From NCBI GenBank assembly GCA_018812265.1, contig JAHJDG010000080.1:1-33275 (forward strand): a DNA stretch of 33,275 nucleotides. The letters are read 5' to 3'. Source of the stretch: a bacterium. Lineage in GTDB: Bacteria; Electryoneota; RPQS01. Within the stretch, counting starts at the first letter, position 1, and each line of letters opens with the position of its first letter. The position numbers and the translations under genes are program-made. This document shows positions 15,425 through 19,566 of the stretch, in pieces. Below the pieces are notes generated by a model, which ran no database searches, was not told where the DNA came from, and saw nothing but the letters and a program-made list of their open reading frames with translations.

Positions 15425-16246
15425 ATGAGCCAATTTCCGTGGAAGGCCGCCGGAACTTTTCAAGATATTTTCTACGAAAAGTGGAACGGCATCGCCAAAA
15501 TCACGATCAACCGTCCCGAGGTGCACAATGCATTCCGGCCGGAGACGCTGTTTGATTTGCAGAGAGCATTTCTCGACGCGCGGGAAGACAGCGAGATCGG
15601 CGTGGTGATTCTGACCGGTGCGGGCACGGAAGCGTTCTGCTCGGGCGGGGATCAGAAGATTCGCGGCGAGCAGGGCTATGTGGGCAAAGACAACGTGCCG
15701 CGACTGAACGTGCTCGATCTGCAAAGGCAGATTCGCTCACTGCCCAAGCCGGTGGTTGCGATGGTGGCGGGCTACGCGATCGGCGGCGGACACGTGCTGC
15801 ACGTGGTGTGCGATCTGACCATCGCCGCCGACAACGCGCGCTTCGGACAGACCGGGCCGCGGGTGGGTTCGTTCGACGGCGGATTCGGAGCCGGCTATCT
15901 GGCGCGGATCGTCGGGCACAAGAAGGCGAAGGAGATTTGGTTTTTGTGCCGTCAGTATTCGGCCCAAGACGCGCTCGACATGGGACTGGTGAACGCGGTG
16001 GTGCCGCTTCAAAAACTCGAAGAAACGACCGTCGAGTGGTGCCGCGAAATGCTGAAGCTCTCACCAATGGCGCTGCGCTGTTTGAAGGCGGCCTTCAACG
16101 CGGAGACCGACGGCGAAGCGGGGATTCAGGAACTGGCCGGCAACACGACGCTACTCTACTACATGACCGACGAGGCTCAGGAAGGCCGCAATGCATTCAA
16201 AGAAAAGCGCGAGCCGGATTTCGGGAAGTTCAAGCGGGTGCCGTGA
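15425..16246 (+). CDS. menB: MenB, 1,4-dihydroxy-2-naphthoyl-CoA synthase
   Basis: A 273-residue crotonase-fold enzyme that closes the second ring of the naphthoquinone from o-succinylbenzoyl-CoA. The family body is complete: [72 protein letters not shown] (active-site loop with Asp), [20 protein letters not shown], and the C-terminal tail [20 protein letters not shown] typical of MenB. AGGAGA lies 5 bases before the ATG. menC and menE, which act before MenB, are not in the window. A diverged second copy of its last 20 codons lies at 19489-19548, so the region just downstream has been rearranged. Confidence 0.95.
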
Positions 16247-16332
16247 CGGATGGGTTGCGCGCGGCGGAGTACTCGTCACAGGAAGAGGATGTGAGCGCTT
16301 AACCCGGCTCGGCGGGAACGTTGCACTATGCG

Positions 16333-16383: not shown

Positions 16384-18468
16384 ATGGATGTTCGTGCGAA
16401 AGCATTGACGCATCTGCGTTCAGCCCTGACCGATCCGCGAGCGGAGTTTCGGGACGGGCAGTGGGAAGCGGTCGCGCGGTTGACGAGGGAACACGCGCGG
16501 CTCTTGGTCGTGCAGCGGACGGGTTGGGGGAAGAGCATGATCTATTTCATCGCGACGCGGATTCTGCGGGACAGCGGCGCGGGACCGACGCTCTTGATTT
16601 CTCCCCTGCTATCGCTGATGCGCAATCAGCTCCTGGCGGCGGATCGTTTGAACCTGCGCGCGGCCACTATCAACTCCAGCAATCCCGAGGAATGGGGCGA
16701 GATTCGCCGGAGATTGCACAAGAATGACGTGGATCTCCTGATGATTTCTCCCGAGCGGCTGGCTAACGAAGAATTCCGCAATCAAACGCTCGCGTCCATC
16801 GCGGGGAAAACGGGAATGCTGGTGGTGGACGAGGCGCACTGCATCTCCGACTGGGGACATGATTTTCGACCGGATTACCGGCGGATCGTGCGCGTGCTGC
16901 GGGCGCTACCGCGCAACGTGCCGGTGCTGACGGTGACGGCCACCGCCAATGATCGCGTGGTGGAGGACGTGGTGTCGCAACTCGGCGGACTTCAGGTGAT
17001 TCGCGGCGGGCTAGGCCGGGATAGTCTGCGATTGCAGAACATCCACCTGCCCGATCAAGCGCAGCGGCTGGCGTGGCTGGCCGAAGTGCTGCCGATGCTT
17101 CCGGGAAGTGGAATCATCTATACGCTGACGGTGGCGGACGCGAAGCGAGTTTCGGGTTGGCTGCGCGCGCATAAACTGAACGTTCCCGCCTACTACGGGG
17201 AACTGGAAAACGATCAGCGGGAGGAACTGGAACGGAAACTGCTCCAGAGCGAGGTCAAAGCGCTGGCCGCGACCACCGCGTTGGGCATGGGTTTCGACAA
17301 GCCGGATTTGCATTTCGTGATTCATTTTCAAAGGCCGGCTTCGGTGATTCATTATTACCAGCAGGTGGGGCGCGCCGGGCGAGCCGTACCGCAAGCCTAT
17401 GGAATCCTGATGTGCGGCCAAGAGGACGATGAAATCGCCGAGTACTTTCAGCGCACCGCGCTACCGCCGACGGCGCAGGTTGAGCAAGTGTTGAACGCTC
17501 TGGAGAAAGCCCGCGACGGCCTCACGCTTTCGATGCTGGAACGGGCGGTGAATCTTTCGCATTCACAGATCGAGAAAGTGTTGACGATGCTGGCGCTCGA
17601 AGATCCGACGCCGATCGTCAAAATCGGGCGGAACTGGCACCGCACTCCGGTGACATATCATCCCGAATCGAGCGCGGCCGACCGGCTGTATCAGATTCGG
17701 AAGCGCGAGCAGACCGTCATGCAGGAGTATGGAGCCACGGCGGAATGCCTGATGCAGTTCCTGCGGCGCGAGCTGGATGATTCGCGGGCCGAGCCGTGCG
17801 GAGTGTGCGCCAACTGTCAGGGCAAACCACTGCTTCCCGCCGCTCCGCACACGGCCACGGTCGTACAGGCCTTGCGGTTCCTGCGGCGCAACGAAGAAAT
17901 CATCGAGCCGCGCGCACAATGGAGCGGCGATGCGATGAAGGGACACGGCTGGAAGGGGAAGATCGTCGAAGGGCTGCGGGCGGAAGAAGGACGCGCGCTC
18001 TGCCGATGGGGAGACGCGGGTTGGGGAGAACAGGTGCGGCGCGGCAAATTTTCGAAGGAGCGATATGAAGATGACCTGTTGGACGGAGCGGTGGAGATGA
18101 TTCGTAAGCGTTGGAAGCCGGAGCCGTTTCCGCGGTGGGTGGCGTGCGTGCCGTCGTTGCGCCATCCGGGTCTCGTTCCCGATTTGGCGAAGAGACTAGC
18201 GGCGGCGCTCGCGCTACCGTTTGTGGATTGTATCCGGAAGACACGCGAAACGGCTCCGCAAAAGGAAATGCAGAACAGCTATCAGCAGTCGCGGAATCTG
18301 GCGGACTCGTTTCAGGTGGACAGGACGCAGGTACGAGGGGATGCCGTGCTGCTGGTGGACGACATGGTGGATTCCCGCTGGACGTTTACGGTGATCGCCG
18401 CGCTGCTGCGCGAAGCGGGCAGTGGGCCGGTGTTTCCGTTCGCGCTCGCCAAGACATTTTCAAAATAA
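16384..18468 (+). CDS. psyrT: PsyrT/RqlH-like protein: RecQ-type helicase fused to a phosphoribosyltransferase domain
   Basis: A 694-residue protein. Residues 1-340 form an SF2 helicase core: Walker A QRTGWGKS with Lys50, DEAHC at 149-153, TVTATAND (motif III), and HYYQQVGRAGR with the arginine fingers at 330 and 333. A RecQ zinc site follows, Cys455, Cys472, Cys475 and Cys478, with the same 17-3-3 spacing as bacterial RecQ. The C-terminal part is a PRTase fold whose PRPP loop is VLLVDDMVDSRWT (655-667). This order matches PsyrT/RqlH, a toxic helicase-PRTase whose partner has a DprA-like fold; the system is known as a toxin-antitoxin pair and as an anti-phage system. AAGG lies 6 bases before the ATG. 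The partner gene starts 8 bases downstream. A plain RecQ-ComF fusion for repair is the alternative, made less likely by the partner. Confidence 0.85.
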   Translation: MDVRAKALTHLRSALTDPRAEFRDGQWEAVARLTREHARLLVVQRTGWGKSMIYFIATRILRDSGAGPTLLISPLLSLMRNQLLAADRLNLRAATINSSNPEEWGEIRRRLHKNDVDLLMISPERLANEEFRNQTLASIAGKTGMLVVDEAHCISDWGHDFRPDYRRIVRVLRALPRNVPVLTVTATANDRVVEDVVSQLGGLQVIRGGLGRDSLRLQNIHLPDQAQRLAWLAEVLPMLPGSGIIYTLTVADAKRVSGWLRAHKLNVPAYYGELENDQREELERKLLQSEVKALAATTALGMGFDKPDLHFVIHFQRPASVIHYYQQVGRAGRAVPQAYGILMCGQEDDEIAEYFQRTALPPTAQVEQVLNALEKARDGLTLSMLERAVNLSHSQIEKVLTMLALEDPTPIVKIGRNWHRTPVTYHPESSAADRLYQIRKREQTVMQEYGATAECLMQFLRRELDDSRAEPCGVCANCQGKPLLPAAPHTATVVQALRFLRRNEEIIEPRAQWSGDAMKGHGWKGKIVEGLRAEEGRALCRWGDAGWGEQVRRGKFSKERYEDDLLDGAVEMIRKRWKPEPFPRWVACVPSLRHPGLVPDLAKRLAAALALPFVDCIRKTRETAPQKEMQNSYQQSRNLADSFQVDRTQVRGDAVLLVDDMVDSRWTFTVIAALLREAGSGPVFPFALAKTFSK

Positions 18469-18476
18469 GGAACCTC

Positions 18477-19454
18477 GTGCAGACGATTTCAGAAGATACA
18501 CAAGCGGTCCTGCTACTCTGTGGCGTATTCAGTGGCGCGCCGGCCGGGGAGGAGGCGCCGCTGGGGCCGTCGGAATTTCATCGGCTCGCTCGCTGGCTGG
18601 AAAAGGAATCGGCCACTCCCGCGAGCCTATTGGATACGCTGGATTCGGCGCGGGTGGCGGAGGGAATCGCCGAGCATCAGATTGCCGCGGAGCGGATCGA
18701 GCGATTATTGAAACGCGGAATGACAGTCGCGGTTGCCACCGAGCGCTGGCTGCAAATGGGATTGTGGATTTTGAGTGTGGCCGACGACGCATTTCCCGCG
18801 AGGTTGAAGAAGAAGCTGCGGGACAAGGTGATGCCCCTCTTGTTTGGCATTGGGGATCCCGGACTCTTGGACGGCGGTGGATTGGCGGTGGTGGGATCGC
18901 GGAAGGCGGATGAGGCCGCGCAGGAGTTCGCGCGCAAGGCGGGAGAACTGTGCGCACGAAATGGCATGCCCGTGATTTCGGGCGCGGCCCGGGGAATTGA
19001 CATGGCGGCCATGCAGGGAGCGCTGGATGCGGGAGGAGCGGCGGTGGGAGTATTGGGGAGTGACTTGGCCCGGCAGGCGGTGTCGCCGGAAACTCGCGTG
19101 TATTTGCAGGCGGGAAACTTGACGCTGGTTACGCCTTTTTCCCCGGAGGCTCCGTTTCACGCGGGCAACGCGATGGCGCGCAACAAATACATTTATGCTT
19201 TAGCTGATCGGGGTTTGGTGGTCAGTTCGGAAGCGGAAACAGGCGGAACATGGAGCGGGGCTACGGAGAATTTGAAGCAGCAATGGACTCCGCTGTGGGT
19301 TCGGAGAGACGCGAACGCTCCGCGCGGCAACGAACTGCTCATTCGTCGCGGTGCGCGGGCGCTCGAAACGTCGTGGCTATCGAAGGACGCGAGTTTTCAA
19401 GACCTCTTTCGCGATGACGGCGACTCAGGGGAGTTGACGTTGTTCGATGAATAG
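18477..19454 (+). CDS. psyrA: PsyrA/RqlI-like protein: DprA/SMF (SLOG) fold partner
   Basis: A 325-residue protein starting at a GTG, with AAGGA overlapping the stop of the helicase gene. The Rossmann-like DprA/SMF core runs from about residue 135: LAVVGSRKADEAAQEFARKA, then PVISGAARGIDMAAMQGALD, AVGVLGSDLARQAV, HAGNAMARNKYIYALADRGL, VVSSEAETGGTWSGATENL. The nucleotide-binding features GSR, SGAARGID and RNKYIYAL match the DprA/SLOG pattern. The N-terminal 130 residues are helical and unlike competence DprA. In PsyrTA/RqlHI this partner restrains the toxic helicase. Competence DprA is the alternative, but the gene is fused in operon to the RecQ-PRTase gene, not to competence or topA genes. The start is set by the ribosome binding site; a much longer in-frame extension overlaps the helicase and is rejected. 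Confidence 0.85.
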   Translation: MQTISEDTQAVLLLCGVFSGAPAGEEAPLGPSEFHRLARWLEKESATPASLLDTLDSARVAEGIAEHQIAAERIERLLKRGMTVAVATERWLQMGLWILSVADDAFPARLKKKLRDKVMPLLFGIGDPGLLDGGGLAVVGSRKADEAAQEFARKAGELCARNGMPVISGAARGIDMAAMQGALDAGGAAVGVLGSDLARQAVSPETRVYLQAGNLTLVTPFSPEAPFHAGNAMARNKYIYALADRGLVVSSEAETGGTWSGATENLKQQWTPLWVRRDANAPRGNELLIRRGARALETSWLSKDASFQDLFRDDGDSGELTLFDE

Positions 19455-19488
19455 CCGAGAGCGCAAGTCGGGAACGACAAAAGATGGC

Positions 19489-19548
19489 GCAACGCGTTCA
19501 AGGAGAAGCGCGAGCCGGATTTCGGTAAGTTCAAGGGGATACCGTGAC
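19489..19548 (+). pseudogene. Remnant of a menB 3' end (20 codons)
   Basis: In one frame this reads [19 protein letters not shown] and a TGA, against [19 protein letters not shown] at the end of menB (16187-16246). Five of the codon differences are silent third-position changes, and the only two amino-acid changes are next to the stop (R to G, V to I). The stretch therefore diverged while still under selection as coding sequence; it is not a recent copying error. Together with the menB end it brackets the PsyrTA-type pair in a unit of 3,302 bp. Confidence 0.85.
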
Positions 19549-19566
19549 GATTCGATATTGTTGTTT

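Follow-up and report, generated by a model that had tools for sequence, protein, structure and literature searches.

The RqlH-RqlI pair of extraintestinal E. coli consists of a RecQ helicase fused to a phosphoribosyltransferase (PRTase) and a DprA-like partner encoded behind it (PMC4670107), which is also the gene order of the locus described here. On its own, RqlH causes SOS, filamentation and loss of growth in E. coli, and either deletion of the PRTase or the substitution D663A abolishes its effects on growth and SOS. RqlI binds RqlH and relieves its effects, and a variant comprising residues 1-320, from which the HTH had been removed, still conferred nearly complete rescue in E. coli (PMC4670107). 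In PADLOC, the system is represented as PsyrTA (Sberro et al. 2013). ComFC shares with the fusion protein the PRT fold and a four-Cys zinc domain nearby, but lacks a helicase fusion (PMC9005727). ShosTA also combines a DprA-like antitoxin with a PRTase toxin; however, ShosT is devoid of a helicase. In Mycobacterium smegmatis, RqlH reportedly has a RecQ-like core, a ComF/PRTase tail and a tetracysteine domain, as does the PsyrT protein described below. Unlike the pair studied here, the mycobacterial protein has no RqlI partner (PMC4670107).

The psyrT-psyrA gene pair

In the window, i.e., the whole stretch of 33,275 nucleotides that was analysed, psyrT and psyrA follow one another on the forward strand (Table 1). 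Both open reading frames were found intact at the positions given in the original prediction, and the residues it had singled out in the Walker A motif, the tetracysteine site and the PRPP loop were identified correctly. As also predicted, PsyrA retains the nucleotide-binding residues of the DprA/SLOG fold, located in the loops G140-S-R142 and S168-G-x-A-R-G173-x-D175 (alignment and motif check). The TAA stop codon of psyrT is spanned by the sequence AAGGA and is followed by a gap of 8 nt (GGAACCTC) and the GTG start of psyrA, in agreement with the spacing and the ribosome binding site noted before. In contrast, the two genes overlap by 4 nt in a homologous copy on an E. coli plasmid (L188), whose products are 51% and 43% identical to PsyrT and PsyrA, respectively. 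A scan for promoters and terminators yielded no signal exceeding that of shuffled sequence.

Table 1. Positions of the genes, motifs and repeats discussed in the text (window coordinates unless a locus is given).
Feature	Position	Strand	Description or basis
psyrT (rqlH-like)	16384..18468	+	694 aa; RecQ-family helicase core, tetracysteine site, C-terminal ComF/PurF-type phosphoribosyltransferase domain
Walker A TGWGKS, residues 46-51	16519..16536	+	motif check, homologue alignments
DEAH box (Walker B), residues 149-152	16828..16839	+	motif check, alignment
Tetracysteine site Cys455, 472, 475, 478 (17-3-3 spacing)	17746..17817	+	motif check, alignment
PRPP-loop region LLVDDMVDSRWTF, DD at 659-660	18349..18387	+	alignment
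Shine-Dalgarno-like AAGGA and 8-nt gap, psyrT stop to psyrA GTG	18467..18476	+	
psyrA (rqlI-like)	18477..19454	+	325 aa, GTG start; DprA/SLOG-fold partner lacking the C-terminal HTH found in long PsyrA
menB (dihydroxynaphthoyl-CoA synthase-like)	15425..16246	+	upstream neighbour of psyrT
Direct repeat, copy 1	16187..16248	+	true 3' end of menB
Direct repeat, copy 2	19488..19549	+	second menB 3' end, 87% identical, just behind psyrA
HNH-like ORF between psyrT ends	L021:4590-5126 (G001:C134)	-	154-179 aa; psyrA intact behind

PsyrT matched the PADLOC PsyrT profile over nearly its whole length (residues 4-693; 952 bits, 3e-287), and PsyrA matched the first 306 of the 398 positions of the PsyrA profile (382 bits, 1e-114); both scores are far beyond chance. 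The locus differs from the PADLOC system in its short antitoxin and in its host phylum. In the Pfam scan, DEAD and Helicase_C exceeded the threshold in the psyrT product and DNA_processg_A was identified in that of psyrA, while no HRDC domain was found in PsyrT. The matches of PsyrT to RecQ_Zn_bind (17.1 vs 25 bits) and Pribosyltran (23.8 vs 26.3 bits) stayed below the Pfam threshold, the latter in a protein matched in full length by the PsyrT profile. With the NCBIfam equivalogs, PsyrT scored 272 bits for recQ (cut-off 640) and PsyrA 81 bits for dprA (cut-off 191). The best PDB match of the PsyrT AlphaFold model (pLDDT 90.9) was the RecQ core 4tmu, and the PsyrA model (pLDDT 90.2) matched DprA (3uqz) and then ShosA (8zva), to which its fold is close; no solved structure of a RecQ-PRTase fusion was found by sequence search.

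The locus thus has the composition of PsyrTA: a RecQ-family helicase fused to a C-terminal PRTase, a tetracysteine zinc site between the two and a DprA-like gene immediately downstream on the same strand. Its full helicase core distinguishes PsyrT from the stand-alone PRTase toxin of ShosTA. The PADLOC profiles, together with separate clades in both phylogenetic trees, bear out the earlier assignment to PsyrTA/RqlHI, and we consider it likely that the pair is an intact toxin-antitoxin member of this known and widespread kind. As a family member, the pair adds no more than one further case to a system that has been described in hundreds of species.

Conservation, divergence and spread

Motif frequencies were determined over 90 full-length PsyrT homologues. 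TGWGKS occurs in 87 of these and is the usual form of the family, so that the Walker A motif is not the oddity for which it had been taken. The zinc site had been described as fully intact, which is correct, and as unusual beside a PRTase tail, which is not, since 78 of the 90 homologues keep all four cysteines; the site is usual but not universal, and in the 11 aligned PsyrT proteins of the phylum all four residues are invariant. The claim that either motif is unusual was rejected on the basis of this count. A loop of the form DD-x2-x-[ST]-x-W-[TS] is present in 89/90 homologues, indicating that the departure of the PsyrT loop (DDMVDSRWTF) from the canonical DDIITTGTTL of ComFC (PMC9005727) is family-wide. 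In twelve homologues (L083, L086, L087, L089-L095, L102 and L104) the tetracysteine site has been lost completely or in part, and most of these proteins are still accompanied by PsyrA.

The trees separated both proteins from their housekeeping counterparts. PsyrT sequences from 11 genomes of the phylum and 26 reference PsyrT formed a clade split from six RecQ proteins of the same phylum with a support of 100/100. PsyrA was split equally well (100/100) from the DprA proteins of the phylum, including that of the host itself (G000:C138), which is encoded away from the pair. The grouping with same-phylum RecQ and competence DprA that would speak against the assignment was therefore not observed. 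The topology of the PsyrT tree departs from that of the phylum. The distance matrices of PsyrT and PsyrA correlate (Mantel r = 0.83; 0 of 9999 permutations), demonstrating that the two proteins co-diverge.

At least 588 relatives of PsyrT were found in one scan, and the best 80 of these came from Cyanobacteriota, Chloroflexota, Verrucomicrobiota, Actinomycetota, Pseudomonadota, haloarchaea and others. A spread over 240 genera had already been reported by Russell and Mulvey in 2015 (PMC4670107). Within the phylum, psyrT occurs in 13 of 39 genomes; one of these copies runs off a contig end and another carries a frameshift, and a fourteenth genome retains a remnant. The host is therefore not unfamiliar ground for the system, contrary to the initial view that the pair lies outside its familiar hosts. 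In many relatives, mostly from Actinomycetota, no PsyrA was detectable, and the helicase is kept alone, without an RqlI partner, in Gram-positives (PMC4670107); PsyrT therefore need not be toxic everywhere. A phage origin of the pair was rejected, as among 50,697 phage records no match covered 80% of PsyrT and only the RecQ core was matched. The phylum also harbors ShosTA-like pairs, in which a gene for a helicase-less PRTase precedes a DprA-like gene (L157 in G032, L163 in G031 and L164 in G022); their best PADLOC matches are the C-terminus of PsyrT and PsyrA/ShosA.

Genomic surroundings of the pair

Genes resembling menF, menD, menH and menB lie upstream of the pair, and menB also precedes psyrT in G001, G006 and, with one gene between, G004, as it does in the host genome (G000). 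Across the family, the interval between menB and menA holds different cargo, with unscanned open reading frames being named by reading the sequence: psyrTA is present in G000, G001 and G006 and, behind another gene, in G004, whereas G007, G009 and G010 have a TrkH-like transporter there and G003, G005 and G008 a membrane protein resembling glycosyltransferases. In G000 (62 bp, 87% identity) and G003 (L058; 83 bp, 83%), another menB 3' end stands behind the cargo and brackets it together with the first, and no integrase was seen in either bracketed segment. The two copies of the menB tail differ mainly at synonymous sites, which suggests that two functional menB lineages met by recombination rather than that a local duplicate decayed. 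Identities to relatives do not distinguish which of the copies is native. In G001 and G006 the pair lies at menB and the second menB end is absent, and therefore the duplication need not mark the first arrival of the pair. The menB-menA interval represents a natural experiment of its own, an insertion site where cargo can sit between diverged copies of the menB end.

Other copies occupy different positions. In G033 (L030, 5058-17108), psyrTA directly follows a dnaA-like and dnaN-like pair and precedes a gyrB-like open reading frame, roughly at the position that recF often takes; these assignments come from reading the sequences. JetA- and JetC-like genes of a Wadjet system adjoin psyrTA in G030 (L032, 10854-16601). 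In the type I restriction system on the E. coli plasmid NZ_OX030731.1 (L188), psyrTA separates hsdS from hsdR, and on the Nostoc plasmid pNPM3 (L189) the pair is located immediately after parA and parB-like genes.

Proposed function and alternative readings

The PRPP loop of PsyrT contains the same acidic residue as that of RqlH: according to the alignment, D660 corresponds, via the motif DD-x-V-D-S, to D663, without which RqlH is not toxic in E. coli. If the E. coli RqlHI pair is taken as a guide, PsyrT is most likely a PRTase-dependent DNA-damaging toxin that is held by PsyrA. In such a system, an unrestrained PsyrT would damage DNA or block growth through an activity dependent on the PRPP loop, and the helicase core would carry this activity to DNA or gate it there. 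PsyrA, the DprA-like SLOG protein, would bind the toxin and hold it inactive; its translation is probably coupled to that of PsyrT on a shared transcript. Foreign or aberrant DNA might then disturb PsyrA and release PsyrT.

RqlI carries a C-terminal HTH of about 80 aa that the window PsyrA lacks; this domain was not treated as defining for the family. The alignments place the end of PsyrA near the truncation point of RqlI at residue 320. Most antitoxins of the phylum and some from elsewhere end near the same place, and 22 of those recovered are shorter than 360 aa. An antitoxin without HTH throughout most of a lineage thus represents a natural match to a truncation that works in the laboratory.

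Abortive infection, in which PsyrA would sense phage DNA and release PsyrT, is a narrower form of the toxin-antitoxin reading, and we regard it as plausible but somewhat doubtful. PsyrTA is classed as a defence system in PADLOC, and protection against T7 and lambda is conferred by a related pair of DprA and PRTase (PMC9122126). In this phylum, some copies have Wadjet-like genes as neighbours or a type IIG restriction enzyme in the vicinity, and the E. coli plasmid copy is embedded in a restriction operon. However, E. coli PsyrTA tested in its native host gave a growth defect only and no detectable phage protection (PMC12409345). Moreover, no PADLOC match occurred among the scanned neighbours in the window and therefore no defence island was seen. 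The biological role of the pair may lie in abortive defence, addiction or repair.

A host module for DNA repair or uptake, in which the RecQ-like and ComF/DprA-like parts would serve recombination rather than defence or a toxin-antitoxin function, appears unlikely. Repair or transformation machinery contains parts of all three kinds (RecQ, ComF-type PRTase and DprA), which would fit this reading, as would the retention of the helicase alone in Gram-positives (PMC4670107) and a host in which no canonical RecQ was found, the other matches in G000 being at most 26% identical. Housekeeping surroundings, assigned by reading sequences, point in the same direction (men genes in the window, dnaA-dnaN-gyrB in G033 and rimM-trmD-rplS in G020). 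On the other hand, the presence of the pair is patchy, the PsyrT tree does not follow the phylum, and plasmid copies adjoin parAB or sit within an hsd operon. In addition, a separate DprA is kept in host genomes, and the E. coli orthologue is genotoxic without its partner (PMC4670107). The RecQ and DprA profiles do match in part, which would fit a housekeeping RecQ and a competence DprA that became adjacent by chance. This reading is practically inconceivable and was ruled out, as both equivalog cut-offs were missed by far, no HRDC domain was found, and both genes are separate from same-phylum RecQ and DprA in the trees, with the host having a DprA of its own.

With respect to the toxin-antitoxin reading, two genomes of the phylum provide a natural experiment in which the toxin was lost and the antitoxin retained, which is the direction that a toxin-antitoxin pair allows. 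A frameshift near codon 278, conceivably an assembly error, interrupts psyrT of G029, and psyrA of this genome is open. In G001, a sister species of the same genus, psyrT is reduced to about the first 33 and about the last 16 codons and its start codon reads CTG. The psyrA gene of G001 is open and 78% identical, with a dN/dS of about 0.14, a rough value as dS is 1.25 and thus near saturation. The open reading frame between the psyrT ends displays an HNH-like pattern (C-x2-C, DHIIP and a spacing of the type N-x2-C-x-C-x2-CN) and gave weak matches to PHROG HNH families and none in Pfam; at the sensitivity of the search, no relatives were found in 291 genomes, plasmids or viral contigs. As this HNH-nuclease-like frame has replaced the middle of psyrT and psyrA is intact, PsyrA of G001 might now control a nuclease and, more generally, PsyrA-type DprA proteins might be exchangeable antitoxins or sensors that take different effectors at one locus; we deem this reading quite improbable. 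The exchange, seen in one genome, is the sole point of the analysis that may lead somewhere new.
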